Shown here in pieces: positions 8,326 to 31,346 of a DNA stretch of 36,267 nucleotides. The number at the start of each line of letters is the position of its first letter. Positions within the stretch are counted from its first letter, which is position 1. The notes under the pieces were generated by a model that worked only from the letters and a program-made list of their open reading frames with translations, did no database searches and had not been told where the DNA came from. The stretch covers positions 59,273-95,539 of the forward strand of contig QPGA01000011.1 of NCBI GenBank assembly GCA_003332265.1, given 5' to 3'. A program made the translations under genes and the position numbers. The stretch comes from Candidatus Accumulibacter meliphilus (lineage in GTDB: Bacteria; Pseudomonadota; Gammaproteobacteria; Burkholderiales; Rhodocyclaceae).

Positions 8326-8333
8326 GGCCCAGC

Positions 8334-10083: not shown

Positions 10084-10188
10084 CGTCCGAAAGAGAATGC
10101 CGAAACTGGCAGCAGCCGGATTCTAGGCGCCCGAGGCAATACCCGCCCTGCCACTCGTCCGCCACCAGGCACCGTATATCACCCCGGA

Positions 10189-10217
10189 TTGGCGCCTCAG
10201 CCAGCCTCGACTATCAT
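10189..10217 (+). promoter_or_regulatory. Possible sigma-70 promoter of the pilin operon
   Basis: TTGGCG (10189-10194) and TATCAT (10212-10217) are separated by 17 bases, 63 bases before the first pilin start. No GG-N10-GC sigma-54 site of the kind known for pilA genes was found in 10084-10279. Confidence 0.35.
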
Positions 10218-10279
10218 GGCAGCTGTTGCCTATGCGCCGTGCCCGCCCAAGCTGGCCGCCCTTGAAGAAAGAAAACGCT

Positions 10280-13560: not shown

Positions 13561-16500
13561 ATGGAAACCATCAAACACATGACCCGATCGAGCGCGTTGT
13601 TCGCCTCGCTCCTTGTCGCTACCAGCGTCCACGCTGGCATCACCCAACTCGCCACCCTGCCGCTTTCCGGAGCCTCGTCGGTCGAAATATTGCCGAATAT
13701 CCTGTTCGTCCTCGATGACTCGAAGAGCATGGAGTTGGACTACCTGCCCGACTGGGCAGGCGGGACCAGTCAATTCCAGGGCAGGAACCCGGCGTTCAAC
13801 GGCATCGCCTACAACCCGGCGATCAGCTACACGCCACCCAAATATTTCGGCGACGACGGCTTGCCCGACAGCACCACCTACCCCAGCCAGACGAGCACCG
13901 TCACCAGCGACTGGACGGTCGTCAAGAACGACGGCTACGGCGTGCAGGACGTCGATTCCAGCAATCTGATTGGCAACGCCTATTACTTCACCACTGTCCC
14001 CGGCGAATACTGTAGCAACCAGAGTCTGAAGAACTGCATCGAAGCCATCGAGCCTAGCGCCGACTATCCGTACCCCGCCTACCTGCGCTGGTGCAAATCG
14101 ACTGCCACTGCCACCGCTGCCACCAATGAACTTACAGCCGGCGACTGCCAGGCGACCGAGATCGACCCCAGCCCACCGCCACCGGCCGAGCCTGCCAACA
14201 TCCCCTTCGACGTCCCGCGCATGCCGGCGCCGCGTGCCAGCACACTGACGATCAGCGGTGCGGGTGCGACTTCGGTCAGCAACATCACGGTGGACGGCAA
14301 GGAGATCCTGTCAACGGCCATCGATGCGAGCAGCGATAGCGGCCAACTGGCGAGCGACATCGCCAAAAGCATCCGTGCCTGCAACTTCAGGCTGGCTGGC
14401 AGCTGCACAGTTGTAGGCTACAGCGCCGTCGCCGCGGGCAACGCCGTTGTGATCAGCGCGCCCGGCAGCACCGAGTTGTCACCGGATATTGCCAAGAGCG
14501 AGGGGATGTCGATTACGGCCACTGCTTTCGCGCGTCCGTCGACGAACCTGGCGCCGGGCGAAAATCTGCTGACCGTGATCACTCCCTCGACATTGACCTA
14601 CGCCAAGGGGGCTGGTCGCACCGACTGCAAGGCCGACCTTTGTACCTATGAAGAGGAAATGACCAACTACGCGAACTGGTGGGCCTATTACCGCACGCGC
14701 ATGCAGGCCATGAAGACGGCAACCAGCCTCGCCTTCGAGCCAATCACCAGCAGCTACCGCGTCGGCTACATGAGCATCAACAACAACACGGGTACCGATT
14801 TCCAGAATATCGATCCGTTCGCCAGCGCACACAAGAAGCTCTGGTACAGGAAGCTCTTCGACGCACGTCCTAGCAACAACACCCCCTTGCGCGTCGCCTT
14901 GGCCAACGCCGGCCGCCTGTACGCGGGCCAGCTGAACGACCTGACCTTCAACGGCGTCAAGGTCATCGACCCGGTACAGCATTACTGCCAGCAGAACGTC
15001 ACCATCTTATCAACCGACGGTTACTGGAACGAGGGCGCCGGTTTCAAGTGGGACGGCATCACTGCCGTCGGCGACCAGGACGGCCCGAGTTACGAGGGTT
15101 TCGAGGGCGAAGTCCGGCCGCAGCTTGACGGCGGCGGTCCGCAAAACCAGGTATCGACGCTGCAGATCATCGAAAAGCGCAAGCCAACGCGGCCGGAAAA
15201 GCAGAAGAAAGAGGAGCAACTGCAGCAACAGACCGCGGTGGTGGAAACCAGCATCACGCAGCAGCAGAAGCTCACGGCGCAGTTGCAGTACAAGGACGCG
15301 ATATGGGAAACGAGAAGCCAACCGCTTCAGACCAGGACATACACGCAGAGCCAGGTCAGTACAAAGACGCTCTGGCAGGAACAGACCTCGCAACTGCAAA
15401 AGCTCACCGGCGTTCAGAAACAACAGACCAAGACGCTACAAACCAAGGTAAAGACCTGGCAGTACCAACTCCGCAAGCTACAAAGCAATACGGCCAACGT
15501 TACCAGCAGGACCTACACGCTGCTAGCGCGTGTAAAGCAGGTCTGGGAACAAACCTCGAGCAATAATGGCACCGACTGGACCGACCCGAGAGCCGTCGAC
15601 TCGTGCTCGCCGGTAAAAAGTGGCACCAACCGCGTGTCGTGCGATACCAAGCAAGCTGTCTCGGACTGGAAAGAGTCTCCTGAGGGCTGCAAGGAGGCCG
15701 ACGGTGTTACGAGGGTGACCAATGAAGGGACTGACCTCGAAGCAACAACCTATTACACGAAGCGAGAATGCATGTACTCGGACCCCGTCACGGTGACGAA
15801 GTCAGGCGAAGCTTGCACGGTCGCGAAGAAATCAGAAAAACCTGCCAATTCAACAGATTCTTTCCATTACACCGTGGGAACGGCTGTGGAATGCGATGCG
15901 CCGGTATTTCCGGGCTGGGTCGACGTGCCGTCGAACGGTTCCTGCACGACTTCGTCCGTCCAGAGCTGCCGGTACCAAAATAACGGCGGTTTGACCGCGT
16001 GGACAGATACCGAGAAATCTTGCGAAGCCATCGCTGAGGACTACAAGAACGTTTCGGCCAGAACATGCAGCTTCAGTTGGCCAACTAACTGGAGCAACGT
16101 TGAAAAAGCAGTGGGAAGCTGCAACCCTGGCGACCCGAGTGTGCGGTGCCGGTACACTCCTGACTGGCTGAGCAGCGATGTCGCCGAATGTGAGACTCCC
16201 GTGGCAGCGCCAGCACTCGCAGACGACTTCAGCGTCTGGAAGCCAACGCTGCAATGCGAGGTCGCCTGGAACACGGACAGCAACAAAAATGAGGCCTGGA
16301 CTAACGTAACGAGCGGCAACTGTACAGTAACGAACACCGGAACGAATCAGACAAAGTGCCGTTACACGGACTTTCCCCCGCCCGACCAGTGGACAACCCT
16401 CGCCGTAGGCGCGTCATGTACGGAAGTGGCCCAGGATACGGCTTCCCCCTACAACATATACGTGGCAAGGAAATGCCAGAAGATTTTTGGACAGCCCGTC

Positions 16501-19500
16501 AATGGTGCGTGCACAGAACCCAACCCCCCGGATCCCGACGCCCCGAAATGCTCGACGACCTGGACCGCTTGGAAAGCGAAGGCTTCTTGCACACCGACGC
16601 CGAACGCCGACCCTAACAACGCCATAAAGAACGACATCCAATGTCGCTATCAACCGTACCCGACGACCAAACCTTTCGGTTGGGCTCCGGCCACCAGTTC
16701 CTGCAGTGCTCTTCAGTGGAAGGGCGAGGGCAATCCCTATATTCCCAAGCAAGTCGAGTGCCGGCAGGAAACGTTTCTCCCCGAACCCACCGGCTGGTCA
16801 AACGTTGGAACAGGAGGAACGTGCACGACGTCGCCGACCCGTCGTTGCCAGTACACGGCTTGGGCTAAGCCCGCCGGGCCCGACCAGCTGTGTAGCGACA
16901 GCGACCCCACGCCGTTGCCGTATTTCAAGGTGGACACGAACGGCATTAATTCTGCCGAGCTTGACGAAATCGTGGCCTGTGAGACCACTTGGACCGAATT
17001 TTCTGCCGCCGTCCCCTGTGTACCCGGCAAACCGGATACCGAACAGCAATGCCGGATCACTTGGCCAAACGACTTCGCAGATGCCGCAAAGTGTAACGAA
17101 ATAGATCCATTGACCAAGGTTAAAGATCCATTGATCAACTGCCAGACGATTACCAAGGACTGGACAAAAGACGACGGTGTGCCTGCGGATGACGCTTCGC
17201 ACGTCGGATTGACAACCACGTATCGGGACTTTCTGGCGGAACCGACCATCATGCCGGTCGCGAAATGCGCAGTGGGTCCCGATGATGAGCAACCCGATGC
17301 TAACGGCGTGGTCACCACCTGCACAGAGGAAAGGACCGACCCGACCGACGCCACCTCGTGCAGCCCGGCTGCCGCCACCCTGAGCAACCTCTACGTCGAG
17401 ACGATTTGCACCACACGGCAAAGCGGTCCGACCCCGGACACTCTGGCCGACGTCGCCGAGTACTACTGGAAGACCGACTTGCGCGACCCCTTGCACAATC
17501 CGGCACGCTGCACCGGTGGGCCGATCATCACCAACGGCGGTACCGACAAGCAGGATGTATGCACCAACACGCCGCTTTATCCGAAGCAGTACATGACCAC
17601 CTATACGCTGGGGCTGGGTGCGTCCGGCCTGATGCAATACGACAATGACTACCTGAAGGAAGGCAGCGCCGATTTCCTGAGCATCAAGACCGAAACGATC
17701 GCCGACCCGAATACCGGCACCTGCTCGTGGCAGCCGAACGGCATCTGCAACTGGCCGAAACCGGTGAGCGACACGCAGAGCAACATCGACGACCTCTGGC
17801 ACGCCGCGGTCAACGGCCGTGGCATCTACTTCAGCGCCTCGGACCCGTCCGCGGTGGCGACGAGTATCAGCGATGCCCTCACCGACGTTGGCGTCAAGGC
17901 CGGCGCTCTGGCAGCGGTTACCGTGACCAGCACGAATCTGGTGGCCGGCGGCAACAACAGCATCTTCGAGGTTTCGTTCAAGGCGGGAGAATGGTCGGGA
18001 GACGTCGTCAAACGGAGCATCGACGCAACGACCGGCGAGCTGTCGGCGCCGGTCTGGGCGGCACAGGCACTGCTCGACGCCAAGGTCGCGAACGGCACGC
18101 ACAAGGCGCGCACGATCTACACCTACGATACGGAGCTCACCTCGACGGACAAGATCAAGCCTTTCCTGTATGACGAGCTGAGCGAGGCCGAGAAGGAATA
18201 CTTCGCGCTGCAGGCGATCCAGGGGCTGTCGCAGATCTGCGAGGTCGGCACGACCTGTCTGGCGGCCAAAACGCAGGTAAGCGCCAGCGGTGAGCCGCTG
18301 CTCAACTTCATTCGCGGCGACTCAACGAACGAAGGTTCGCCAATCGACCGGGCCACATTCTACCGCCAGCGGGCGCATCTGCTCGGCGACATCGCCAGCT
18401 CGGAAGCGGTCTATGTCCAGGCCTCGCCCTGGAACTATGCCGACTTGCAATACGGCGCCTTCAAGACCGCCAATGCAGACAGAGCCGGCCAGGTCTACGT
18501 CGGCGCCAATGACGGCATGCTGCACGCCTTCGACGCGGCGACCGGGGAGGAAGCCTGGGCGTATGTGCCAAGGATAGTGATGCCCAGTCTCTACAAGCTG
18601 GCTGACAAGAACTACGCCGCCCCTGACCGGCACCAGTTCCTGGTCGATGCCACGCCCGTCGCTGGCGACATCTACGACAACCACAGCCAAGTAAAAGCCT
18701 GGAAGACCATCCTGGTCGGTGGCCTGAACCATGGCGGACGCGGCTACTACGCGCTGGACATCACCGATCCGGCTGCCCCCAAAGCCCTCTGGGAGTTCAC
18801 TGACGACAATCTGGGCTACACCTACGGCAACCCGGTGATCACCAAGCTCAAGGATGGCACCTGGGTGGTGATTGTCGCATCGGGATATAACAACGTCTCG
18901 CCCGGTGACGGGCAAGGGTGGCTGTTCATCCTCGACGCCGTTTCCGGAGCCGTCATTCGTACGATCGGTACCGGCGTCGGTAATGTCGGGACACCGAGCG
19001 GCCTGGCGCGGATTGCCGGCTGGGCAAATTTCCCGGACAACAACAACACCACGCAGCGCGTCTACGGCGGCGACCTGCTCGGCAACCTGTGGCGTTTCGA
19101 CATCAACGGCGACATTCCCGTCACCGTCGATCCGCCGGTCTACGACGCGCAGCGGCTGGCGAAGCTGGTCGATGCCGAAGGTGTCGCGCAACCGATCACC
19201 AGCAAACCCGAACTTGGCAAGATTGGCAGCCATCCGGTGGTCTTTGTCGGCACCGGCCAACTGCTCGGTTCGGATGACCTGGTGACCGATCAGCAGCAAT
19301 CGCTCTATGCGATCAAGGACCGCCTCACCAACGACGACTATGGTAACCCCAGGGATCCGGCGCAACTCGACCCGGTCCCCGGCAGCTTCGTCGCACAAAC
19401 GCTGAGCACCGGCGTCTGCCCCGCCAACAATGACTACTGTATCAAGGGCGAGGCAATCGTCAAAATCAGCGATCCGAAACCCGTTGATTTCAATACCAAC

Positions 19501-19866
19501 GACGGCTGGTACATCGACTTCCCGGTAGCCGGCGAAAGGGTCAACACCGATCTACGCCTGCAGCTCAGTACCCTGGCGTTCAACACCAATACGCCAACCC
19601 TCGGCGCCTGCGTTCCGGTCGGCGTCAGCTTCGCCTACTTCCTCGACTACCAAACCGGCGGCGCTGTGGAAGGAGCGGACGGGCTGGTCGGAAGGAAACT
19701 GGGCGATTACCTGAGTACCTCGCCAAGCGTCATCCGCCTCGAGAACGGCAGGATCAGGGAATTGATCCGGACCGACACCCCCGATACGATCAGTACGCCG
19801 GTTCCGACCGCACCGACGCCGCTCGCTACACGCCGCGTTTCCTGGCGGGAACTGATTACCGAGTAG
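13561..19866 (+). CDS. pilY1: Type IV pilus tip adhesin/biogenesis factor PilY1, enlarged
   Basis: PilY1 is the secreted pilus-tip protein needed for pilus extension, adhesion and surface sensing. A signal peptide (residues 1-25, cleavage after VHA) is followed by a von Willebrand A-like domain with the MIDAS-type DDSKS (52-56). The C-terminal beta-propeller domain starts near residue 1640 with VYVGANDGMLHAFD and GGLNHGGRGYYALDI and includes GGDLLGNLWRFD. At 2101 residues it is nearly twice the size of P. aeruginosa PilY1. The excess lies between TILSTDGYWN and DTLADVAEYYWKTDL, two segments normally close together: a Gln/Lys-rich probable coiled coil (about 535-665), then a Cys-rich repeat region (about 680-1285). 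AGGAG precedes ATG 13561. A strong terminator follows the gene. Confidence 0.93.
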   Translation: METIKHMTRSSALFASLLVATSVHAGITQLATLPLSGASSVEILPNILFVLDDSKSMELDYLPDWAGGTSQFQGRNPAFNGIAYNPAISYTPPKYFGDDGLPDSTTYPSQTSTVTSDWTVVKNDGYGVQDVDSSNLIGNAYYFTTVPGEYCSNQSLKNCIEAIEPSADYPYPAYLRWCKSTATATAATNELTAGDCQATEIDPSPPPPAEPANIPFDVPRMPAPRASTLTISGAGATSVSNITVDGKEILSTAIDASSDSGQLASDIAKSIRACNFRLAGSCTVVGYSAVAAGNAVVISAPGSTELSPDIAKSEGMSITATAFARPSTNLAPGENLLTVITPSTLTYAKGAGRTDCKADLCTYEEEMTNYANWWAYYRTRMQAMKTATSLAFEPITSSYRVGYMSINNNTGTDFQNIDPFASAHKKLWYRKLFDARPSNNTPLRVALANAGRLYAGQLNDLTFNGVKVIDPVQHYCQQNVTILSTDGYWNEGAGFKWDGITAVGDQDGPSYEGFEGEVRPQLDGGGPQNQVSTLQIIEKRKPTRPEKQKKEEQLQQQTAVVETSITQQQKLTAQLQYKDAIWETRSQPLQTRTYTQSQVSTKTLWQEQTSQLQKLTGVQKQQTKTLQTKVKTWQYQLRKLQSNTANVTSRTYTLLARVKQVWEQTSSNNGTDWTDPRAVDSCSPVKSGTNRVSCDTKQAVSDWKESPEGCKEADGVTRVTNEGTDLEATTYYTKRECMYSDPVTVTKSGEACTVAKKSEKPANSTDSFHYTVGTAVECDAPVFPGWVDVPSNGSCTTSSVQSCRYQNNGGLTAWTDTEKSCEAIAEDYKNVSARTCSFSWPTNWSNVEKAVGSCNPGDPSVRCRYTPDWLSSDVAECETPVAAPALADDFSVWKPTLQCEVAWNTDSNKNEAWTNVTSGNCTVTNTGTNQTKCRYTDFPPPDQWTTLAVGASCTEVAQDTASPYNIYVARKCQKIFGQPVNGACTEPNPPDPDAPKCSTTWTAWKAKASCTPTPNADPNNAIKNDIQCRYQPYPTTKPFGWAPATSSCSALQWKGEGNPYIPKQVECRQETFLPEPTGWSNVGTGGTCTTSPTRRCQYTAWAKPAGPDQLCSDSDPTPLPYFKVDTNGINSAELDEIVACETTWTEFSAAVPCVPGKPDTEQQCRITWPNDFADAAKCNEIDPLTKVKDPLINCQTITKDWTKDDGVPADDASHVGLTTTYRDFLAEPTIMPVAKCAVGPDDEQPDANGVVTTCTEERTDPTDATSCSPAAATLSNLYVETICTTRQSGPTPDTLADVAEYYWKTDLRDPLHNPARCTGGPIITNGGTDKQDVCTNTPLYPKQYMTTYTLGLGASGLMQYDNDYLKEGSADFLSIKTETIADPNTGTCSWQPNGICNWPKPVSDTQSNIDDLWHAAVNGRGIYFSASDPSAVATSISDALTDVGVKAGALAAVTVTSTNLVAGGNNSIFEVSFKAGEWSGDVVKRSIDATTGELSAPVWAAQALLDAKVANGTHKARTIYTYDTELTSTDKIKPFLYDELSEAEKEYFALQAIQGLSQICEVGTTCLAAKTQVSASGEPLLNFIRGDSTNEGSPIDRATFYRQRAHLLGDIASSEAVYVQASPWNYADLQYGAFKTANADRAGQVYVGANDGMLHAFDAATGEEAWAYVPRIVMPSLYKLADKNYAAPDRHQFLVDATPVAGDIYDNHSQVKAWKTILVGGLNHGGRGYYALDITDPAAPKALWEFTDDNLGYTYGNPVITKLKDGTWVVIVASGYNNVSPGDGQGWLFILDAVSGAVIRTIGTGVGNVGTPSGLARIAGWANFPDNNNTTQRVYGGDLLGNLWRFDINGDIPVTVDPPVYDAQRLAKLVDAEGVAQPITSKPELGKIGSHPVVFVGTGQLLGSDDLVTDQQQSLYAIKDRLTNDDYGNPRDPAQLDPVPGSFVAQTLSTGVCPANNDYCIKGEAIVKISDPKPVDFNTNDGWYIDFPVAGERVNTDLRLQLSTLAFNTNTPTLGACVPVGVSFAYFLDYQTGGAVEGADGLVGRKLGDYLSTSPSVIRLENGRIRELIRTDTPDTISTPVPTAPTPLATRRVSWRELITE

Positions 19867-22050: not shown

Positions 22051-23130
22051 ATGACCTTGCAGAGCAAGCCCAACACCGACGACGTTCGCATCCGGGAAAT
22101 CAAGGAGCTGGTCCCGCCAGCGCACGTTTTTCGCGAATTTCCGGTCGGCGTTCGCGCTGCAACGACTACCTATGAAGCGCGCCAGAACATCCATCGCATC
22201 CTGCACGGCGCCGACAATCGCCTGCTGGTCGTGATCGGCCCCTGTTCGATTCACGATGTCGATTCGGCCATCGAATACGCCACGCGACTGCAGAAGGAAG
22301 CGCCGCGTTTCGAGGACGATCTGCTGATCATGATGCGCGTCTATTTCGAAAAGCCGCGCACGACCGTCGGCTGGAAAGGCTTGATCAACGATCCGCGCCT
22401 CGACAACAGCTTCCGGATCAACGAAGGCCTCCGCCTGGCACGCGGCTTGTTGTTGCAGATCAACGACATAGGCCTGCCCTGCGCGACCGAATTCCTGGAT
22501 ACCATCACCCCGCAATACACCGCCGACCTGATTGCCTGGGGAGCGATCGGGGCGCGCACCACCGAATCACAGGTGCATCGTGAACTGGCCTCCGGCTTGT
22601 CCTGTCCGGTCGGCTTCAAGAACGGCACTGACGGCAATATCCGCATCGCCATCGACGCCATTCGCGCCGCGCAGTCGCCGCACCACTTCCTCTCGGTGAC
22701 CAAGGCCGGCCATTCGGCGATCGTATCGACCTCCGGCAACGAGGACTGTCACGTCATCCTGCGCGGCGGCAAGGAACCGAACCACGATGCCGCACACGTC
22801 GACGCCGCGTGCAGGGAAATTGCCGCCGCCGGACTCGCCGCGCGGCTGATGATCGACGCCTCGCACGCCAACAGCAAGAAGCGCTTCAAGCAACAGATCG
22901 AGGTCGCCAGGGATACCGCCAGGCAGGTGACGGCCGGCGACGAACGGATCATCGGCGTGATGATCGAATCACACCTGGTGGAAGGACGCCAGGATCTGGT
23001 GCCCGGCCAGCAGCTCGAATACGGCAAGAGCGTGACCGACGCCTGCCTGGGCTGGGAAGACTCGCTGTTGGTGCTGGAGTTTCTCGCCAAGAGCGTCCGT
23101 GAGCGCCGCCTGGTCGAAGCCGCCGCGTAA
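22051..23130 (+). CDS. aroG: 3-deoxy-7-phosphoheptulonate synthase, class I (AroG type)
   Basis: DAHP synthase condenses phosphoenolpyruvate with erythrose 4-phosphate, the first step of the shikimate pathway. The 359-residue product shows the class I motifs: VVIGPCSIHD (metal-ligand Cys), MMRVYFEKPRTTVGWKGLI-type substrate loop, GARTTESQVHRELASGLS, VGFKNGTDG and IDASHANSKK. The length matches the feedback-regulated AroF/AroG/AroH enzymes; which aromatic amino acid inhibits it cannot be read with certainty. ATG 22051 has GGAG at good spacing; the frame opens much further upstream (21709) inside the previous gene, which is rejected. A very GC-rich hairpin follows. Confidence 0.95.
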   Translation: MTLQSKPNTDDVRIREIKELVPPAHVFREFPVGVRAATTTYEARQNIHRILHGADNRLLVVIGPCSIHDVDSAIEYATRLQKEAPRFEDDLLIMMRVYFEKPRTTVGWKGLINDPRLDNSFRINEGLRLARGLLLQINDIGLPCATEFLDTITPQYTADLIAWGAIGARTTESQVHRELASGLSCPVGFKNGTDGNIRIAIDAIRAAQSPHHFLSVTKAGHSAIVSTSGNEDCHVILRGGKEPNHDAAHVDAACREIAAAGLAARLMIDASHANSKKRFKQQIEVARDTARQVTAGDERIIGVMIESHLVEGRQDLVPGQQLEYGKSVTDACLGWEDSLLVLEFLAKSVRERRLVEAAA

Positions 23131-23171
23131 GGGCTGGCATTATCCGCAAGGCGGCAAGGCTGAACGACAAA

Positions 23172-23205
23172 CGGCGGGGCGGCCGCTTTCGCGGCCGCCC
23201 CGCCG
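23172..23205. terminator. GC-rich hairpin between convergent aroG and rpmG
   Basis: A 15-bp perfect stem (23172-23186 with 23191-23205) closes a TTTC loop. It lies 41 bases after the aroG stop and 46 bases after the rpmG end on the opposite strand. No long T-run follows on either side, so it may act as a bidirectional terminator or mainly protect mRNA ends. Confidence 0.65.
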
Positions 23206-23251
23206 GTGGGAACAGCTTTCCGTGAGCAGCGCACGAGCGCGCGCGCGTCGC

Positions 23252-23407
23252 TCAGCGGAGCTTGATTTCCTTGTAGATCACGTGCTTGCGGACCTTGGGA
23301 TCGTACTTCTTGATCTCCATCTTGCCCGGCATGGTGCGCTTGTTCTTGGTCGTGGTGTAGAAGTGGCCGGTTCCGGCGGTCGACTCGAGCTTGATCTTGT
23401 CACGCAT
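23252..23407 (-). CDS. rpmG: Large ribosomal subunit protein bL33
   Basis: A 51-residue basic protein read from ATG 23407: [20 protein letters not shown], then [19 protein letters not shown] and a C-terminal [11 protein letters not shown]. This is the bL33 sequence pattern, and the length is that of proteobacterial bL33. It lacks the four zinc cysteines of the C+ form, so it is a zinc-independent type. It lies 14 bases after rpmB on the same strand, the conserved rpmB-rpmG pair, with GGAGAGCAG before the start. Confidence 0.96.
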
Positions 23408-23421
23408 AGCTGCTCTCCTGG

Positions 23422-23655
23422 TCAGATCTCGCCGCGCGCACGCAGGTCTGCGAGCACAACGTCGATACCGTTCTTGTCAATGGTGCGCAAACCGGCGTTC
23501 GATAAGCGCAAGCGCAGCCAACGGCTTTCGCTCTCGATCCAGAAGCGGCGATACTGCAAATTCGGAAGGAAGCGGCGCTTCGTTCTATTGTTGGCATGGG
23601 AAACATTGTTCCCCACCATCGGGCCTTTGCCCGTGACCTGGCAAACACGCGCCAT
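23422..23655 (-). CDS. rpmB: Large ribosomal subunit protein bL28
   Basis: A 77-residue basic protein of the large ribosomal subunit. [20 protein letters not shown] and the later [13 protein letters not shown] are diagnostic for bL28; [18 protein letters not shown] completes the domain. The length is normal. A good promoter lies 39-67 bases upstream on the minus strand, so rpmB-rpmG is a separate operon from radC despite the same direction. Confidence 0.97.
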
Positions 23656-23693
23656 GATTGTCGCTCCAATTGTCTGAGGGAAGAAAACCCGCG

Positions 23694-23722
23694 ATTCTAG
23701 CGCAGGCCAAGGTCTACTTCAA
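23694..23722 (-). promoter_or_regulatory. Sigma-70-type promoter of rpmB-rpmG
   Basis: Read on the minus strand, TTGAAG (23722-23717) and TAGAAT (23699-23694) are 17 bases apart, close to consensus at both boxes. The downstream leader of about 35 bases to the rpmB ATG contains a GGAG ribosome-binding site. Confidence 0.65.
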
Positions 23723-23828
23723 GCGTTTTGGCCCAATCGTCCAGGCTGTCGTCGCCGCAAACTAACGGTCATGACCTGTCGAGACACCCCTGATGATGAA
23801 AGCCATGACCGTCCCCCTCTTCCCCTGG

Positions 23829-23853
23829 CCCTTCTCCCGCGAGGGGAGAAGGG
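23829..23853. repeat. REP-like hairpin CCCTTCTCCC/GGGAGAAGGG
   Basis: A 10-bp perfect inverted repeat with a 5-base loop sits between radC and the rpmB promoter. Polypyrimidine-polypurine hairpins of this style are commonly dispersed in many copies between genes of beta- and gammaproteobacteria. It lies just after the radC stop (31 bases), so it might also act as a 3'-end hairpin of that mRNA. Confidence 0.5.
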
Positions 23854-23884
23854 AGTTTCGTGAGTCGCTTGCGCGACTTTCACA

Positions 23885-24565
23885 TTACAACAAGCCGCGC
23901 TCGGCAAACGAGAGTGGCGGCGACTGCCCGGCAACGATGAAATGATCGAGCACCCGCACCTCGATCAGCGCCAACACCTGCTTCAGCTCGCTGGTCAGCA
24001 GTTCGTCAGCGCGCGAGGGTTCGGCCACCCCCGAGGGATGATTGTGCGCCAGCACCACCGCCGCCGCGTTATGCCGCAACGCGTGCTTGAGCACCTCGCG
24101 CGGATAGACGCTGGTTTGCGTCAGAGTGCCGCGAAATAGTTCTTCGGTGGCAATCAGGCGATTCTGGGCGTCCAGCCACAGGGCCAGAAAGACCTCATGC
24201 TGCAAGCTGGCCAGGTGCAGCCGCAGATAGTCGCGCACACCGCCGGGAGAAGCGAAAGTCAGCCCCTCCTCTTTCAGCTCTTCGCCGAGCGCCCGCCGCG
24301 CCATTTCCAGCACCGCCTGCAACTGCGCATACTTCGCCGGCCCCATCCCCGGCACCGCAGAAAAATCGGCCAGGCTGGTCGCAAACATGCGGTTCAGCCC
24401 GCCAAAACCGCCAATCAACTCGCGCGCCAGATCCACCGCGCTTTTTCCCTTGCTACCGACGCGCAAGAAAATCGCCAGCAATTCAGCATCCGATAGGGAA
24501 GCGGCACCGCGCGCCAGCAGGCGCTCACGTGGTCGCTCGTCTTCAGGCCAGTCGCGAATTGCCAT
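23885..24565 (-). CDS. radC: RadC-family JAB/MPN domain protein
   Basis: A 226-residue protein with an N-terminal helix-hairpin-helix region (about 63-90, [16 protein letters not shown]) and a C-terminal JAB/MPN metalloprotease-like domain. The JAMM zinc motif is complete: His174, His176, Ser178 and Asp187 in [15 protein letters not shown]. RadC was named for DNA repair, but a direct repair role is doubtful; its substrate is unknown. [17 protein letters not shown] matches the usual betaproteobacterial start, so ATG 24565 is preferred to the in-frame one at 24571. The radC-rpmB-rpmG neighbourhood is conserved, so this is core genome marking the left edge of the accessory island. Confidence 0.93.
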
Positions 24566-24571
24566 GTCCAC

Positions 24572-24959
24572 ACCTCAAGGAAAAGCCTCAGTAAGGCAAA
24601 TTACCCATGCCGCTCCAACTGGTACACCCGACGGCGCTGCCAGTGCATCGCCATGACATGCGCGGCGCATTAATCGCGGGGCAACAGCCAGACTGCAGCG
24701 CAGCGACGCGGCCACCGGGCAGCGTGGCTCGAAGTGATGAGACGTCAATTCTGAAGTCCGCTGCGCGCGATAAGGGGGACGCCAGCGCGATCAGAGCAAA
24801 TGGCTGTTCGTCAGCCATTGCTGCCGGTGGCGATACCTTAGGCGACTTCTGTCAAACAACATACCATCTTGCTTGTCTTTTCGCCCGTCTTCTGTGTTGC
24901 CACAACAGTTCGGCCCTCAGATTCTGAACACAGCTTTCCTCAACCTTATTGGCCGGGCC
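24572..24959. other. Gene-free left flank of the accessory island
   Basis: Short open frames occur on both strands (for example 24607-24927 plus and 24588-24818 minus), but none has a convincing ribosome-binding site or a product I recognise. I see no tRNA, terminal repeat or insertion-sequence end. Composition shifts from GC-rich to clearly more AT-rich by about 24840. Confidence 0.4.
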
Positions 24960-24987
24960 TTCGACATACTGTAAAATGCATTACATT
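24960..24987 (+). promoter_or_regulatory. Promoter with overlapping operator-like palindrome before the RHH gene
   Basis: TTCGAC (24960-24965) and TACATT (24982-24987) are 16 bases apart. The inverted repeat TGTAA-N6-TTACA (24970-24974, 24981-24985) lies in the spacer and runs into the -10. A repressor bound here would block RNA polymerase. The ribbon-helix-helix gene starts 22 bases downstream, so autoregulation is a natural reading, by analogy with antitoxin-type RHH proteins. Confidence 0.45.
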
Positions 24988-25009
24988 TGCAGTTGCTTCT
25001 GGAGAGGGT

Positions 25010-25207
25010 ATGGCAAACAGCAAAACGGCCACGCTGACCTTTCGGATCGATCCGAGCCTGAAGGAAGCCTTGCGCATCGCAGCTCATGCGGAACACCGGT
25101 CCATCGCCAACATGATCGAGGTTTTGATCCGCGACTTTTGCGCGCAGCGAGACATTGCGATCCCGGCCTCCACGCCAACCGAGAACCGCAGTGGCGAGCG
25201 CTCATGA
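25010..25207 (+). CDS. Small ribbon-helix-helix DNA-binding protein
   Basis: A 65-residue protein with an Arc/CopG-type fold. KTATLTFRIDPSLKEALRIA gives the beta strand and first helix, and EHRSIANMIEVLIRDFC the second helix. RHH dimers bind short palindromes through the strand; such proteins serve as antitoxins, plasmid regulators or local repressors. GGAGAGGG lies 3-4 bases before ATG 25010, and the palindrome at 24970-24985 is a likely target. The stop overlaps the next small ORF (ATGA). It is the first gene of the island operon and probably its regulator. The frame extends upstream to 24869 without a better start. Confidence 0.8.
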   Translation: MANSKTATLTFRIDPSLKEALRIAAHAEHRSIANMIEVLIRDFCAQRDIAIPASTPTENRSGERS

Positions 25208-25404
25208 ACAGGACGCTCAATGGGGCGTTCGGATTCAATCCCGTCATTCAAGAATTCCGGATGAGTCAGGGACCTACAAACCTGACCGCTCTCGTCAATA
25301 GCGCAGGTGATGACCGCAAGTTTCTTTCGCGCGCCTCCTCACCCACAGCATGGAGCAGCGTTTCGCTGAAGGTCAAGAAGAAGCTGCGGCTTGGGGCCAG
25401 ATGA
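25204..25404 (+). CDS. Unrecognised 66-residue ORF overlapping the RHH gene
   Basis: The start ATG shares ATGA with the RHH stop, and the next gene begins 4 bases after this frame's stop, so it fits the operon pattern. The product (MNRTLNGAFGFNPV...KKKLRLGAR) is polar, with a very basic C-terminus, and matches no family I know. It could be a genuine small partner, a toxin remnant, or simply an open frame in the gap. Nothing in it points to a membrane segment or active site. Confidence 0.4.
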   Translation: MNRTLNGAFGFNPVIQEFRMSQGPTNLTALVNSAGDDRKFLSRASSPTAWSSVSLKVKKKLRLGAR

Positions 25405-25408
25405 GATC

Positions 25409-25831
25409 ATGACGATGACTGCCGATTTTCACGATGCTCACCAACGTCACTGGGACGATGCAGAGTTGCTGTACGAGAAGCAACGTTGGGCGAATGCCGA
25501 TCACTTGTACGGCATGGCGGCCGAGTGTGGGTTGAAGCAACTGATGCTTGCCTTCGGCATGTCTTTCGATGCGGGGAAAAACATGCCTGTTGAGCCAAAG
25601 GACTCGGTTCATGCAAATGGCGTGTGGGCGCGTTACGAAAGCTACCGCGGCGGACATCGTCGCGGCGCAGCCTATGCCTTGACCGCCTCCAACCCGTTTG
25701 ATGATTGGCACGTGGCCCAGCGGTACGCGCAGCAGACCCTGTTCGACTCCAACCGTGCCACCAAACATCGAGACGGCGCGGAGAATGTGCGTCAACTGGT
25801 AAGAAAAGCCGCTTTTGAGGGGTTGATATGA
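25409..25831 (+). CDS. HEPN-like all-helical protein of the island operon
   Basis: A protein of about 140 residues, predicted all-helical. HQRHWDDAELLYEKQRWANA, then DHLYGMAAECGLKQLM (about residues 8-45) and, near the C-terminus, AQRYAQQTLF and a later HRDGAENV, look like the HEPN-type hypothetical proteins common next to ATPases in bacterial islands. The canonical HEPN RNase motif R-x4-6-H is not clear: the closest is RATKH with three residues between. RNase activity is therefore uncertain. The start may be ATG 25409, ATG 25415 or TTG 25391. The stop overlaps the ATPase start (ATGA), so the two should be made together. Confidence 0.6.
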   Translation: MTMTADFHDAHQRHWDDAELLYEKQRWANADHLYGMAAECGLKQLMLAFGMSFDAGKNMPVEPKDSVHANGVWARYESYRGGHRRGAAYALTASNPFDDWHVAQRYAQQTLFDSNRATKHRDGAENVRQLVRKAAFEGLI

Positions 25832-27180
25832 CCACCTTCGACAAAATTCTTCCATGCGTGACCGAGCTGCTGCATGCCCATCGGGGAACGGTAGATTTGC
25901 TGGACTGGCTGCTCATCAACCGAGACCTCAATGGCCGGGTAAGGCTGATTGTGCCAGAGGCCATCGAGACAGAAGAGGCCATTCGGAGCCAGATGGGTGT
26001 CTTCGCCGAGAGCTTGGCCGAGCAACTCGGAGCCCACAGCCACCCGGCAAAAGCGGCCATTCTGTACGAGGCAAGCCGGGAGCTGGCTAGCCAGGGGGCA
26101 ACAAGCCATTCGCTGGAAGGTTTTGGCCACGTATGGCTGGCCGACCGCCTGGCGACCGAAGGTAACTGGGCGCAGATCGCACCCGAAACCGAGGGGCGGC
26201 GACGCGTCGTGTTCTTTTCCATCAAGGGCGGTGTTGGGCGCTCCACCGCGCTGGCTGCGACAGCATGGACTTTGGCGCAAGCGGGAAAACGCGTCCTCGT
26301 GCTGGACCTTGATCTGGAGTCTCCCGGTCTGTCTTCCAGCCTACTCCCGCCTGAGCGGCAACCTGCTTTTGGTATTACCGATTGGCTGGTGGAGGACTTG
26401 GTAGACAACGCCGACGAGGTGTTTGAAAGCATGATCGCCACCAGTGACCTTTCCCATGATGGCGAAATCTACGTGGCTCCCGCTCATGGTGCCGACCCGG
26501 GTGAGTATGTCTCGAAGCTCGGTCGAGTATGGATGCCGAAAGCCGAAGCCAACGGTTCTCTTGAAAGCTGGTCTGCGCGATTACAGCGCCTGCTCACAAA
26601 GCTGGAAGCACGCGTCCAGCCCGACGTGGTGCTGATCGACTCGCGTGCTGGTATCGATGAGGTGGCTTCCACGTGCGTGACCGACTTGGGCGCGAACTTG
26701 GTGTTGTTATTTGCTCTGGAAGGCAGCCAGACCTGGAATGGTTACCAAGTCTTGTTTGAACACTGGCGACGCGCGCGCGTCGCCGAAGCCATGCGCGAGC
26801 GGTTGAAGGTCGTCGCCGCTTTAGTGCCTGAAATCGATCGGGTTGCCTACCTTGAAGGCCTCCGCGAACATGCTTATGAGATTTTCGTCGAGTCACTTTA
26901 CGATGAAATCGCACCGCCATCAACCGATGCCATCGGGCCAGCGCCCAACGACAATCGAAGGTGGCAAGTCAGGCAAATCGTAGAAGGTTGGAATTTTGAT
27001 GAAGCCGATGAGGGGGCGCCTCACAGCCCTTGGTCAGTCCACTGGCACCGAAGCTTTGCCGGACTTCGCTCCTTACAAGGCCGACTTGCCGTCATTGACG
27101 CACAAGAGGTGAAGGCCATTTTCGGCCCATTGATCGAGGGGATCAGCGGAATCCTTGACTCGGAGAATGTCGATGTCTGA
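25828..27180 (+). CDS. ParA/MinD-type (SIMIBI) ATPase with KGGVGRS Walker A
   Basis: A 450-residue protein. An N-terminal helical region (about 1-120) with no recognised domain precedes a ParA/MinD-like ATPase: SIKGGVGRST (131-140), Walker A' RVLVLDLDLESPG (Asp160/Asp162) and Walker B DVVLIDSRAG. The signature Lys133 of the deviant P-loop is kept, but the usual second Lys (KGGxGK) is Arg138. This KGGVGR form marks a subgroup of ParA-like NTPases that occur with effector or conflict genes rather than plasmid partition. No ParB-like gene or centromere repeats are present here. It overlaps the HEPN-like gene by 4 bases and the next NTPase by 8. Function is inferred only. Confidence 0.82.
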   Translation: MTTFDKILPCVTELLHAHRGTVDLLDWLLINRDLNGRVRLIVPEAIETEEAIRSQMGVFAESLAEQLGAHSHPAKAAILYEASRELASQGATSHSLEGFGHVWLADRLATEGNWAQIAPETEGRRRVVFFSIKGGVGRSTALAATAWTLAQAGKRVLVLDLDLESPGLSSSLLPPERQPAFGITDWLVEDLVDNADEVFESMIATSDLSHDGEIYVAPAHGADPGEYVSKLGRVWMPKAEANGSLESWSARLQRLLTKLEARVQPDVVLIDSRAGIDEVASTCVTDLGANLVLLFALEGSQTWNGYQVLFEHWRRARVAEAMRERLKVVAALVPEIDRVAYLEGLREHAYEIFVESLYDEIAPPSTDAIGPAPNDNRRWQVRQIVEGWNFDEADEGAPHSPWSVHWHRSFAGLRSLQGRLAVIDAQEVKAIFGPLIEGISGILDSENVDV

Positions 27181-28567
27181 TGTACGGGCAATGCGCGAAG
27201 CCATCCTGGCTGCGCCTCTGGAAACCAGTAACTTTGGCGAGGAGCCTCAGCCGGGGACGCTTTACATTCCCTTATCCCACCTGAAGGCACTGCGGCTGGA
27301 CGCACACGTGGTCGTGGGCGGGCGAGGGGTAGGAAAATCCTTCTGGACGGCTGCGCTCCAGTCCGATGCACTACGTAGCCTGCTCGGTTCATCCTCTCCC
27401 GAACTAGCGGGGGTCGAGGTTCGGGTGGGCTTCGCCAGCACAGAGCGGATTGACTGTTATCCGAATGCCGATGTGTTTGCTGCTTTCATCGATAAGGGTG
27501 GTGAACCCTACGACCTCTGGCGTGCCGTGGTTTTGCGCTGGGTCGCCGAGCGCGCACAAAAAAAAATACCCGTCGCCAGTTGGCCTGAAACCGTTGCCTG
27601 GCTGAAGTCTGAATCTGAAGCAGCGGCGCGCCTGATGCAGCAGCAACGTGACTGGCGTGGCCTCATCCTGTTCGATGCGCTAGACCGAACCAGCAACGAC
27701 TGGCAGCGAATGGATAGCATTGTGCGCGGCCTTTTACGCACGGTGCTTTGGCTCAAGAGCATTCCCGGCCTCTACGCCAAGGTTTTTCTGCGAGAAGACC
27801 AGGCGGAGCGCACCGTTTTCAACTTTCCTGATGCCTCTAAGCTCACGGCCACGAAAGCCGAGTTGACTTGGGCTAGACACGATCTGCATGGCTTACTGTG
27901 GCAACGACTGATCAACGCGCCGCTTGCGCATGGAAAATGCTTACGGGTGATTCTTCAAGCCCACGAACATTCCGGCATCTGGCTGTTGCCAGATGAAATG
28001 AAACGGGAAACCGAAGTACAGCGCAGGTCATTTGAGCGGCTTGCCGGCCCGTGGATGGGCCGCGACAGGCGGCGCGGAGTTCCCTATACTTGGTCCGTTA
28101 GCCATCTGGCGGACGGGCGCGGCCAGACCTCGCCACGCTCATTTCTCGCCGCGATACGTCAGGCGGCAGAAGACACGAGCGAGCGCTACCCTCAGCACGA
28201 GGTCGCGCTGCATTATGAGAGTATCAAGCGCGGCATTCAGAAGGCGTCGGAGATTCGGGTGCAGGAGGTGGCCGAGGACTACCCTTGGGTGCCGGATGTT
28301 CTCTCGGAACTGAAGGGCATGAACGTGCCGTGCGACTACACGGAGGTGCAATCGCGCTGGCTGGCGCGGTTCCCCGAAGGACCACGGAGCATTTCTTCGG
28401 ACCGGCTTCCGGCTCAGCACGTAGAGCGCGGTTGGGACGGCCTGCGTGACGACTTGCAGCGCTTGGGCCTTGTTGAAACCAAGAAGGACGGTCGTATCGA
28501 CATGCCAGACCTCTACCGCGTCGGCTTTGGTCTAGGGCGTAAGGGTGGCGTCAGGCCGAGTAACTGA
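27173..28567 (+). CDS. P-loop NTPase of the island operon
   Basis: A 464-residue protein with a classical Walker A GGRGVGKS (49-56) and a Walker B-like GLILFDALDR (about 163-172). KVFLRED (204-210) and ELTWARHDLHGLLWQRL (about 231-247) follow, an arrangement like KAP, STAND or Sll1717-type ATPases. The C-terminal 170 residues look helical, with a possible winged-helix end (DDLQRLGLVETKKDGRI). No nuclease or membrane domain is evident. ATG 27173 is chosen because CGGAG lies 7 bases upstream, whereas the in-frame ATG 27167 would be too close to it. It is the last gene of the operon. Confidence 0.72.
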   Translation: MSDVRAMREAILAAPLETSNFGEEPQPGTLYIPLSHLKALRLDAHVVVGGRGVGKSFWTAALQSDALRSLLGSSSPELAGVEVRVGFASTERIDCYPNADVFAAFIDKGGEPYDLWRAVVLRWVAERAQKKIPVASWPETVAWLKSESEAAARLMQQQRDWRGLILFDALDRTSNDWQRMDSIVRGLLRTVLWLKSIPGLYAKVFLREDQAERTVFNFPDASKLTATKAELTWARHDLHGLLWQRLINAPLAHGKCLRVILQAHEHSGIWLLPDEMKRETEVQRRSFERLAGPWMGRDRRRGVPYTWSVSHLADGRGQTSPRSFLAAIRQAAEDTSERYPQHEVALHYESIKRGIQKASEIRVQEVAEDYPWVPDVLSELKGMNVPCDYTEVQSRWLARFPEGPRSISSDRLPAQHVERGWDGLRDDLQRLGLVETKKDGRIDMPDLYRVGFGLGRKGGVRPSN

Positions 28568-28931
28568 CCCCAGTGACGATCTACCACGTCCCCACCGTTG
28601 TTGCGCTTGAACTCCCCACTTGCTTACGATCTGCCGCAGCTGCAGCGATGAGACATGGGTCAGACCGGCTCAACTCGACATCGCCCGATGAATCGTGCTC
28701 TACAGCGGTAGCGGCGTCTGCTGCATGGCGCGTGCCGTGCTTGCGGTGCGCTCGATTCATCGGCTGATCGCACGAAACAGGGACCGCAGGGACAAAACGC
28801 GGGGACCTCGCTGACGCCAAGATCTCCGCGCTGTTTGCCCATGCTCGTTCCGTACAAGAAGCGAGTCCTGACGCCAGCAGCGGTTTCAGGTCCCGTTCGA
28901 CCCCTGGCGCTTGACTGCCCCCCTCCCTGCT
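28568..28931. other. Gene-free right flank of the island with an 11-bp inverted repeat
   Basis: No frame here has a recognisable product. CCGATGAATCG (28685-28695) and its exact reverse complement (28753-28763) are 57 bases apart, too far for an ordinary terminator. The stretch may hold remnants of a mobile element, but I cannot name one. No tRNA or attachment-site duplication was found. Confidence 0.35.
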
Positions 28932-29570
28932 TCAACCGGGCGGCATCACGGCGCGCACGCTGCTGCGCTCGTTCATGCGCCCCAACCAGCCCTCGATACT
29001 CGGTGCCGCGGCGAGCAGGGTCAGGCCTTCCGGGGTCGCGCGCAGATAGGTCACTACCGGCAGGACGTGCAAATCGGCGAGGCTCACGGTCGCGCCACCG
29101 AAGTAGTTTGCCTCGCCGAGCAGGCGCGCGATCTCTTTGAGGAACAACGCCGCCCGAGGCTTGGCTGCTTCGATTTCAGCTTCGTCGGTCTGCCCACCGA
29201 GTGCCGGCACGAGGACGCGGGGAATGAAAATATGAGTGATCGACGCCGGGTAGCCGTAGCTTTCAACGATGCCCATCACCTGATTGACCCGGCTGCGGTC
29301 AACGGGCGTCGCGGGCATCAGGGCCGGTCCCGGAAACACCTCGTCGATATAGCGCATGATCGCCGCTGCCTCGTAGATCGCATGGCCGTCGTGCTCGAAG
29401 GCGGGCATTTTTCCCCAGGGATGACGGGCCAGATGCGCCTCTTCCAGATGCTGACCCTTGACCAGATCCACGGCCACCAGCGTGTGCGCTACGCCCTTTT
29501 CCGCCAGGGCCAGGCGAACGGAACGAACGTAGGTGCTGATGGCATCACCGTAAACGAGAGCTTGGCTCAT
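28932..29570 (-). CDS. Glutathione S-transferase family protein
   Basis: A 212-residue cytosolic protein. The N-terminal thioredoxin-like domain has a Ser/Tyr-containing start (VYGDAISTYVRSVRLAL), the cis-Pro loop GKMPAFEHDG (about residues 53-62) and the glutathione-binding YEAAAIMRYIDE (about 69-80). The C-terminal helical domain has the N-capping-type FGGATVSLADLHVLP. GSTs conjugate or reduce electrophiles with glutathione; the substrate cannot be told. ATG 29570 has GGAGA 6 bases upstream; the frame opens to 29774 but lacks a better start. It is transcribed away from the cyclase-HDOD gene. Confidence 0.92.
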   Translation of the reverse strand: MSQALVYGDAISTYVRSVRLALAEKGVAHTLVAVDLVKGQHLEEAHLARHPWGKMPAFEHDGHAIYEAAAIMRYIDEVFPGPALMPATPVDRSRVNQVMGIVESYGYPASITHIFIPRVLVPALGGQTDEAEIEAAKPRAALFLKEIARLLGEANYFGGATVSLADLHVLPVVTYLRATPEGLTLLAAAPSIEGWLGRMNERSSVRAVMPPG

Positions 29571-29906
29571 GATTTGTCTCCTTTGGGTTGTCCAGCGGGT
29601 TCGTACAGGACGGACCTCGGCTGAGGTCCGCCGTACGCGCACTATTCTGCCCGCTGATCGTCGTTTTTGCACTCGGGAAATAGCGCTGTGATCGGCGCCC
29701 ATGCGCTGTGGTCGGCGGTCGGGATGAGCACAGCACCCCGCAGAAAGCCCGGCAAGTCCCTGCCAGGCCGCCACGGCGATTGACTGCGGTGCCCGGAAGC
29801 CGGGATACTCGTGTTGATGGTGTCAAATTCCGTGTTCTTCAGCGGCCGCCCGTCCGCCCGACAGCCACGGCAGAAAATCTCCGACAACACACGAGCGAGG
29901 CGGTGA
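29571..29906. other. Divergent intergenic region with a hairpin
   Basis: This region between the divergent GST and cyclase genes contains CGGACCTC-GGCT-GAGGTCCG (29611-29630), an 8-bp stem with a 4-base loop, flanked by GTAC on both sides. Its position near the GST start suggests a regulatory site rather than a terminator. No clear promoter was identified. Confidence 0.4.
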
Positions 29907-31346
29907 ATGGGACCGGCAGAACTTACCTTGGGCGATGCTTCGCTGATCACGGCCACTTTCCTGTTTACCGACATCGAAGGCTCGACCAACCTCTGGGAAA
30001 CCGAATCGCAGGCCATGCGCATCGCCCTTCAGCGCCACAACGCGCTCCTGTCGGCGGCGGTCGAGCGCCACCACGGCTACGTCTTCAAGACCGTTGGCGA
30101 CGCTTTCTGCGTCACTTTCGACGATGCCAGCGAGGCGCTGCACGCCGCCTGCCAGATCCAGGCCAGCCTCGCCGCCGCGCGCTGGCCGACGAAGTCACCG
30201 CTGCGCGTACGTGTTGCGCTGCACACCGGCCCGGCGTACCTGAGCGGCGGCGACTACTTCGGGACGACGGTCAATCGCTGCGCGCGCGTGCTGGCGGTCA
30301 CGCTTGGCGGACAGACGCTGCTCACTTCGCCGACCGAAGCCCTGGTGCGCAAATCCTTGCCGGCGGACACCAGCCTGCGCGATACCGGCATGCTGCGCCT
30401 GCGCGACCTGCCGCACCCGATACACGTTTTCCAGCTGATTCATCCCGGGCTGTCGCCGAGTTTGTGCGAACTGGGCGGCAGCGCGGGCGGACACAAGCTG
30501 ACCACGGAACCGATGGCCCGTTTCCGCCCCGTCGACCTCTACGAAGTCCCGACGCTGCCGGCGATCATCGTGCAGGCACTGAAAGTTCTGCAGAATCCGA
30601 ACAGCGATGCCCGCGCCGTCGAGCGGGTGATCGTCAATGATCCGGCGATCTCGACCAAGATCCTGCGCGTCGCCAACTCCGCGTTCTTCGGTTTCTCGCG
30701 GCGGATCAGCACCATTTCCGAAGCGGTGCGGGTGCTCGGTTTCACCAACGTTCAGGGAATGATCTTCTCGGTCGGCGCCTTCGACGCCTTTCGCACCGAG
30801 CGCCTGAACCTGACCGACTTCTGGAAGCATTCGATCGCCACCGCCACCGCCGCACGCTTCCTGTCCCCGCACGTCCAGTGCTCGGCCGATGAAGCGTTCA
30901 TGGCCGGCATCCTGCACGACATCGGCAAACTGATTTTCGCCATCCAGGCCGAACCTGCCTACCATCAAGTACTCGAGTTGCGGCGCGGCGCGGCGCCGAT
31001 GAGCAGTCTCGAAGCCGAGCGCACGCTGTTCGAATTCACTCATCCCGAGGTCGGTGAGATGGTCGCCGAGCGCTGGGATCTGCCAGCGCGCTACGTCGCC
31101 GCCATCGCCCACCATCACGACCCGCAAGCGGCTGGCGAAGAGCGCGCGTTCTGCGCCCTGATCGGACTCGCCGACCAGGCCGCCTACGCCGCTCTGGGTG
31201 GCCAAACGCCGCCAGCGGAAAATGACGGCGAGCGGGCCGCCCTGCTCGCGATGCTGGCCTTGCGCCCGCAGCATTGGGACGAGTGCCTGCAACACCTGCA
31301 CGACGCGCACACCGACATCAACGGCTTTGTCGGTGCGATCCGCTGA
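29907..31346 (+). CDS. Class III nucleotidyl cyclase fused to an HDOD domain
   Basis: A 479-residue fusion. The N-terminal class III cyclase (about 14-135) has both metal aspartates, Asp22 (FTDIEGST) and Asp65 (VGDAF), the adenine-contacting Lys61, and the transition-state pair Asn123/Arg127 (VNRCAR), so it should be an active adenylate cyclase. The second part (about 190-400) is an HDOD domain: LPAIIVQALKVLQ, VNDPAISTKILRVAN, and an HD-like AGILHDIGKLIF with IAHHHDP. HDOD domains are HD-related signalling modules, usually taken as non-catalytic, yet here HD and later His residues survive. There is no membrane segment, so it is cytoplasmic. ATG 29907 follows GAGG. Confidence 0.9.
   Translation: MGPAELTLGDASLITATFLFTDIEGSTNLWETESQAMRIALQRHNALLSAAVERHHGYVFKTVGDAFCVTFDDASEALHAACQIQASLAAARWPTKSPLRVRVALHTGPAYLSGGDYFGTTVNRCARVLAVTLGGQTLLTSPTEALVRKSLPADTSLRDTGMLRLRDLPHPIHVFQLIHPGLSPSLCELGGSAGGHKLTTEPMARFRPVDLYEVPTLPAIIVQALKVLQNPNSDARAVERVIVNDPAISTKILRVANSAFFGFSRRISTISEAVRVLGFTNVQGMIFSVGAFDAFRTERLNLTDFWKHSIATATAARFLSPHVQCSADEAFMAGILHDIGKLIFAIQAEPAYHQVLELRRGAAPMSSLEAERTLFEFTHPEVGEMVAERWDLPARYVAAIAHHHDPQAAGEERAFCALIGLADQAAYAALGGQTPPAENDGERAALLAMLALRPQHWDECLQHLHDAHTDINGFVGAIR

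Follow-up and report, generated by a model that had tools for sequence, protein, structure and literature searches.

In a 36,267-nucleotide stretch of the Candidatus Accumulibacter meliphilus genome (contig QPGA01000011.1, positions 59,273 to 95,539; hereafter the window, meaning this whole stretch), three adjacent genes at 25409-28567 encode, judged by sequence, a member of the candidate defence family PDC-M28. Their products, here called A, B and C, are a protein of predicted HEPN fold, a ParA-like ATPase and a second P-loop NTPase. We consider it probable that this trio is a portable, self-sufficient second-line module that has repeatedly settled behind the methyltransferase gene in larger defence operons and is able to outlive them. 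This reading builds on data for the family match, the gene order, the nesting of the trio in BREX-1, BREX-2 and Type-2 BREX-Related (BR-2) operons, free copies, an 8.3-kb deletion at this locus, host decays and the predicted folds of A and C.

A first-pass annotation of the window had proposed one conflict system of five genes, in which a ribbon-helix-helix (RHH) gene and a small open reading frame (ORF) precede the trio. The single five-gene system was rejected, since the RHH gene and the small ORF belong to the 5′ end of a lost BR-2 host, the small ORF being the start of a deleted DUF499 gene rather than a separate gene. The assignments of a HEPN-like protein, a KGGVGR ATPase and a P-loop NTPase hold in profile and structure searches. 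The look of a conflict system is also upheld, and the trio is present inside BREX-1, BREX-2 and BR-2 defence operons. Several points are new here: the hosts extend to BREX-1, the trio has repeatedly survived the decay of a host, the RHH gene and small ORF are accounted for, a sibling genome has an empty site, and A has a predicted AbiV-type site.

Many defence candidates are known only from sitting inside larger systems. Here one trio occurs in standing hosts, in decayed hosts and without a host, so that comparison can directly test whether an embedded module needs its host or works alone. With its host naturally deleted and the promoter retained, the copy in the window lends itself to such a test, and A offers a test of an alternative HEPN active site.

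The PDC-M28 proteins

All three proteins match PADLOC profiles of the family over nearly their full length (A to PDC-M28A at 1.5e-54, B to PDC-M28B at 2.3e-182 and C to PDC-M28C at 3.2e-207), and their genes are adjacent and co-directed in the order A-B-C, an order that recurs at the other loci with all three. The copy in the window thus has the same proteins in the same order as the PADLOC-DB 2.0 candidate, but without a host operon. PDCs were reportedly introduced by Payne et al. in a 2024 preprint. As far as the available portions of the literature tell, they came from a ‘guilt-by-embedding’ survey, in which the nesting of the trio in larger systems is likely to be already implicit, and PDCs other than M28 are called uncharacterised or mostly untested. 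A literature search returned no paper naming PDC-M28, none with KGGVGR and none combining ‘ParA-like ATPase’, HEPN and anti-phage. The earlier statement that the set matches no named system therefore needs correction in one respect, since the proteins are listed as PDC-M28A/B/C, and stands in the other, with no functional description found in the literature searched. Under the refuting condition of the first-pass annotation, a match to an already described system, its reading is half refuted, as the match is to a listed candidate.

The AlphaFold2 (AF2) model of A has a predicted local distance difference test score (pLDDT) of 95.5, and HEPN structures top its VIA-align list, giving A a predicted four-helix HEPN fold. 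Residues E39, H68 and R105 are kept in 45 of 45 aligned rows, and helices are predicted at 27-48 and 69-81. The standard HEPN motif, Rx4-6H, is missing: R105 is invariant, but no conserved histidine lies four to six residues on. HEPN proteins of the AbiV/AF0298 type have an alternative histidine in an insert between helices 2 and 3, together with an arginine and an acidic residue of helix 2 (PMC3710099). A carries a predicted active site of this alternative type, composed of H68, R105 and E39. It shares with AbiV the HEPN fold, the conserved histidine in the helix 2-3 insert and an arginine before the last helix (PMC3710099), but falls under the Pfam AbiV cut-off (14.3 of 27.1 bits); moreover, the title of PDB 9bj6, which presents AbiV as a HEPN RNase of an antiphage system, names a two-component system and not two ATPases.

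Protein B matches NCBIfam NF047398 (KGGVGR-variant ATPase) at 203.3 bits against a cut-off of 90, and the lysine of its P-loop is replaced by arginine in 50 of 50 rows. When compared by sequence with solved structures, B gave P-loop matches to ArsA/ParA/MinD-like chains only, and the same kind of search found nothing useful for A or for C. The AF2 model of C (pLDDT 93.7) matches structures of Orc1/Cdc6, BrxC, archaeal ATPases and CED-4, and its Walker A and B residues G49, G52, G54, K55 and D168 are invariant, in keeping with a STAND/ORC-Cdc6 fold. Against NF047389 (P-loop ATPase, Sll1717 family) C scores 56.7 bits, under the cut-off of 75; all 38 C rows, including that of the window, match this model at E <= 0.001, which makes Sll1717 a kin family of C. 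Between the window and its closest relative, L002, dN/dS is 0.18 for A, 0.10 for B and 0.11 for C, values that give no date for the loss of the host.

Host operons, their loss and their decay

The trio was surveyed at 57 loci, namely ten fetched through B, 29 regions and 17 plasmid stretches fetched through C, and the window. The 29 regions are the stronger C matches only, and the plasmid stretches represent 17 of 21 records with C. C is present at all 57 loci and A and B at 50 each, the same 50 carrying all three. A gene-neighbourhood survey had been recommended by the first-pass annotation, and it does show that the three genes stay together in distant genomes (at 39 of the 46 loci fetched through C) and lie within defence operons. 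Seven loci (L063, L078 and five on Streptomyces plasmids) have C without A and B. Of eight further stretches, six contain A-B-C, one has A and B in one partial frame and one is cut by a contig end; one of the six, L154, repeats L006, was taken as the same record and was left out of the host counts and the tree. No trio DNA was matched in E. coli genomes with an Enterobacter copy as query, and no match to C was found in phage records.

Two variations on the usual arrangement were seen. The five Streptomyces plasmid loci (L132, L134, L136, L137 and L138) carry relatives of C, in L136 and L137 amid the same plasmid neighbours (replication-relaxation and ATP-binding proteins), and C may have other partners in these plasmids. 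At L075-L079, C continues into a long fused C-terminal part; in L075 and L077, the two of five that were scanned, this part contains a calcineurin-like phosphoesterase and a NACHT domain. A and B are encoded directly upstream of the fused C at four of these five loci.

The search for host genes used tblastn with BR-2, BREX-1, BREX-2 and metallophosphoesterase-NACHT references, and 20 proteins (10 + 10), a few of them neighbours of host-less trios, were also scanned with PADLOC. Twelve recognisable hosts emerged: BREX-2 at six loci (L051, L052, L053, L082, L084 and L129), BR-2 at five (L003, L004, L006, L011 and L152) and BREX-1 at one (L055), where the order is brxA-brxB-brxC-pglX-A-B-C-pglZ-brxL. 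Not all of these are intact, as the stretches of L004, L053, L084 and L152 cover only part of the operon, the methyltransferase gene of L004 is interrupted by a transposase gene, and pglX is divided into two in L052, L053 and L129. In ten of the twelve the trio comes immediately after the methyltransferase gene, with a short gap or an overlap; in L129 a small ORF and an RHH gene of the Arc type intervene, and in L084 the trio follows pglW. Diverged DUF499- and helicase-like genes are present on the opposite strand at L085 (Calothrix). Many other loci, on chromosomes and on plasmids, some of them conjugative, have none of the BR-2, BREX-1 or BREX-2 host genes in the fetched flanks.

In a class-level sample of 369 genomes, eight contain the BR-2 methyltransferase (E <= 1e-100) and eight contain C at the same threshold. 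Both occur in three genomes, against 0.17 expected, and they are neighbours in two; the third is the window's own genome, which was in the sample by design and in which the two genes are not neighbours. That genome also has a second BR-2 operon without a trio (L171, contig C1, 384500-402500; 5386-15056 of that stretch), whose four genes, DUF499-DUF3780-DUF1156 methyltransferase-HKD helicase, are all open and only 28-37% like the L011 type. As a separate observation on the BREX-2 hosts, pglX is split at residues ~790/794 in L052 (750-5024), L053 and L129, with a few hundred bases between the frames. The gap in L052 contains a PIN-domain gene at 3408-3824 (Pfam 8.8e-15), and a SoFic-like gene lies behind the trio there.

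The origin of the RHH gene and small ORF is indicated by two metagenome-assembled genomes, L003 (Tepidimonas) and L011 (Rhodanobacteraceae), in which an RHH gene and an ORF matching the small ORF lie ~8.5 kb upstream of the trio. The RHH orthologues there adjoin a DUF499 gene, directly upstream of it, and the counterpart of the small ORF forms the beginning of this 1,041-residue gene (PADLOC E 0, residues 2-1040). Between the small ORF and L003, 21 of the first 44 residues are identical and then 1 of 22, the frame being lost after ~43 codons. A 128-residue tblastn match to DUF499 starts in an upstream extension of the reference ORF, in another frame over the RHH gene, so that its true part is ~43 codons. 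The full order in L003 is RHH, DUF499, DUF3780 (PADLOC 2.4e-93), a macro-domain protein, DUF1156 methyltransferase (E 0), A, B, C and a PLD/HKD-helicase (E 0), and fuller BR-2 relatives follow the plan RHH-DUF499-DUF3780-(macro)-DUF1156-ABC-HKD helicase, with ABC denoting the trio. These comparisons identify the RHH gene, with its promoter, and the small ORF as the 5′ end of a BR-2 operon of the kind described by Rakesh and Krishnan (2026, PMC12839542), and the trio as a separate module.

The DNA alignment places window 24966-25366 on L003 894-1296 and window 25377-28557 on L003 9553-12733. Between the aligned segments, L003 has 8,256 bases and the window ten, so that ~8.3 kb is missing from the window; L011 shows the same gap (826-1233, then 9591-12676). 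Only the DUF499 start, with its ~43 in-frame codons, was found in the window, where DUF3780, the DUF1156-type N6-methyltransferase and the HKD-helicase gave no tblastn match at E <= 1e-4; all three are present in L003, L004, L006, L011 and L152. The HKD-helicase that follows C in fuller relatives has also been lost, as DNA similarity ends at most 13 bases from the stop codon of C. On these alignments the window is a deletion derivative of a BR-2-hosted trio. The left end is conserved from 24966 and includes the inverted repeat TGTA-N8-TACA, which places the trio behind the promoter and RHH gene of its former host.

The window is not alone in keeping the trio in a broken BR-2 operon. Remnants consist of a macro gene with DUF1156 and helicase scraps in L005, of RHH, the DUF499 start and a helicase scrap in L008, and of RHH, DUF499 and DUF1156 scraps, a macro gene, Ppl and another defence-like gene in L010. 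L008 joins the DUF499 start to A at a different place from the window. L009 and L008 share ~64 bases upstream of A (75.7% over 70 bases, 1.4e-8), and L009 probably derives from the same deletion. In L002, a 3.8-kb contig, the sole match upstream of the trio is 46 bp long and is to the end of the helicase in L006. A quick IQ-TREE of B and C (55 rows, SH-aLRT support only; L139 and L130 left out as near-copies) puts the BR-2-type trios in one clade of 13 (support 100), comprising five with recognisable hosts, four decayed and four in which no host trace is clear. On this tree the decayed rows require four changes, but L005 and L008 are neighbours there, so that three separate decays is the safe count. 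By this phylogeny the trio has survived at least three separate decays of BR-2 hosts, and its survival past the lost host suggests that it is able to work on its own.

L010 also presents several defence genes stacked in one decayed BR-2 remnant: between the macro gene and the trio, at 5025-9105, lie the Ppl gene (PADLOC 4.3e-118) and another gene whose matches to argonaute systems are weak (2e-19).

Proposed mechanism and competing explanations

Every step of the mechanism that we propose is inferred. C, a STAND/ORC-Cdc6-type switch that falls in one broad class with BrxC, would sense an infection-linked signal and change state with ATP. B, the KGGVGR ParA-like ATPase, would relay this change or serve as a nucleotide-dependent clamp that holds or releases A, and A would then cleave RNA through its AbiV/AF0298-type site, halting phage growth or the cell. 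In the window, the deletion has put the trio behind the RHH gene and promoter of the former host. Precedents exist both for HEPN effectors that are set free by ATPase partners or when a restriction system is disabled (PMC3710099) and for embedded ATPase-gated modules such as PARIS (PMC12839542). PARIS and PrrC resemble the trio as ATPase-gated effectors nested in BREX or restriction operons, but their builds, OLD-ABC with TOPRIM and ABC-HEPN, are unrelated to it. In the main text of PMC12839542, ‘ParA’ and ‘MinD’ occur zero times as whole words, and HEPN genes are mentioned as standalone or fused to other domains. A bolder version is possible, though we give it less than an even chance: the trio would be a self-sufficient immune module whose build is new, with an AbiV-type HEPN RNase gated jointly by a STAND/ORC-type NTPase and a KGGVGR ParA-like ATPase with a lysine-to-arginine P-loop, a module that spreads by inserting downstream of the methyltransferase gene in three or more kinds of host operon and outlives them, and for which host-erasing deletions that keep the promoter and RHH gene have been retained more than once (window and L008).

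The main rival to a self-sufficient module is a guard, in which the host methyltransferase complex keeps the NTPases inactive and the HEPN protein is freed when a phage blocks the host system. PrrC (PMC3710099) and PARIS (PMC12839542) would be its models, and the place of the trio directly behind the methyltransferase gene in most recognisable hosts favours it, as does the resemblance in fold between C and BrxC; in the window's genome, such a guard could even act in trans on the distant trio-less BR-2 operon. However, the fetched flanks of many trios contain no such host, and a strict guard would fire or be lost when its host decays, whereas trios persist past at least three separate decays. 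We therefore regard a guard as rather unlikely. A toxin-antitoxin-like addiction module, with toxin A held by B (and C) and kept since its loss is harmful, is likewise an unlikely account. Three genes including two ATPases are unusual for a toxin-antitoxin pair. Retention of the trio in decayed hosts does fit addiction, in L005 and L010 beside a macro-domain (DarG-like) gene, and four plasmid copies lie near integrase genes. The HEPN (MAE_18760)-ParA/Soj dyad, which similarly sets a HEPN protein beside a ParA-like ATPase, has been proposed as a toxin-antitoxin system (PMC3710099), but its HEPN protein has the standard motif that A lacks, no Pfam match to the MAE_18760-type family appeared in scans of A and its alignment, and the window adds a third NTPase gene beside A and B.

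The undated age of the deletion would leave room for a neutral leftover, three frames that are intact by chance and without function after a recent event. Against this stand the low dN/dS relative to L002, the presence of the conserved residues of A, the three frames open over 3.1 kb and the retention of trios in several decayed hosts, and we judge it improbable. A plasmid or chromosome partition module was rejected as having next to no chance of being correct: the P-loop of B is similar to those of ParA families, but it has arginine in place of lysine in every row, the trio nests in BREX and BR operons, and the locus has neither a ParB-like frame among its five frames (profile scans) nor a centromere-like repeat array in 24400-29300, as the first-pass annotation had observed.

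Locus layout and neighbouring features

A frame-by-frame recheck of the sequence confirmed the five co-directed, closely packed frames within 24960-28567 that had been described for this locus (Table 1). ATGA overlaps join the RHH gene to the small ORF and A to B, the frame of B runs eight bases into that of C, and only four bases separate the stop codon of the small ORF from the start codon of A. The lower G+C content of the operon was also confirmed, at 57.2, 59.1 and 58.0% per kb (25001-28000) against 60.4-65.9% in the three flanking kb on each side. Its island nature is evident from sibling G015, of the same genus, in which the radC-side block (95.6%) and the GST-side block (87%) align 102 bases apart, whereas they are 4,250 apart in the window. 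This comparison is compatible with gain of the island in the window or with its loss in the sibling.

Table 1. Coordinates of the locus features (window positions unless indicated)
Feature	Position	Strand	Basis
Island	24642..28891	.	Present in window; 102 bp instead between aligned blocks of sibling G015
Putative promoter/operator region of lost BR-2 host	24966..25009	+	Conserved with L003, L011, L008
RHH (CopG/Arc-like) regulator of lost BR-2 host	25010..25207	+	Sub-cut-off RHH Pfam and PHROG Arc-like matches
Small ORF, DUF499 ATPase gene start, outside trio	25204..25404	+	DNA similarity to L003 until ~25366-25372
Deletion junction	25366..25377	.	Left homologous to L003 up to 1296, right from L003 9553
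A, HEPN-fold protein (PDC-M28A), predicted AbiV/AF0298-type site	25409..25831	+	PADLOC, AF2, structure matches
B, ParA-like ATPase, KGGVGR P-loop (PDC-M28B)	25828..27180	+	PADLOC, NCBIfam NF047398
C, STAND/ORC-Cdc6-type P-loop NTPase (PDC-M28C)	27173..28567	+	PADLOC, AF2, structure matches
radC-side and GST-side blocks of G015 on L125 (reverse complement)	6152-6907 and 7010-8372		Aligned to window 23886-24641 and 28892-30200

Of the single promoter with an operator-like palindrome that the earlier reading placed upstream, the palindrome is the firmer part. The TGTA-N8-TACA inverted repeat, at 24970-24985 over a -10-like TAAAAT, is kept in L003, L011 and L008, and its conservation supports a putative operator more than the sigma-70 scan does. 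The sigma-70-like match at 24949-24977 is weak by itself, as the scan gave two sites in 4.3 kb against 1.1 in shuffles. Sigma-70 and terminator scans, being near shuffle level, were dropped as evidence, and the idea that the operator DNA folds stably was rejected as well (z -0.55). No Rfam RNA reached its gathering score in window 23000-30000.

Two features outside the island were also recorded. A ~121-bp repeat at window 23763-23887, with ends TAACGGTCATGAC and CACATTA, has 16 further aligned copies in its own genome and many more in siblings, and it is missing exactly at this position in G015, where the blocks meet at 23764/23886 with a two-base overlap. It looks like a small mobile element of the miniature inverted-repeat transposable element (MITE) type. 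Farther away, a 2,101-residue frame at 13561-19866 carries, towards its C terminus, a PilY1 domain (7.9e-45), and a PilW-like gene precedes it at 11807-12898; the two probably belong to a type IV pilus minor-pilin cluster.

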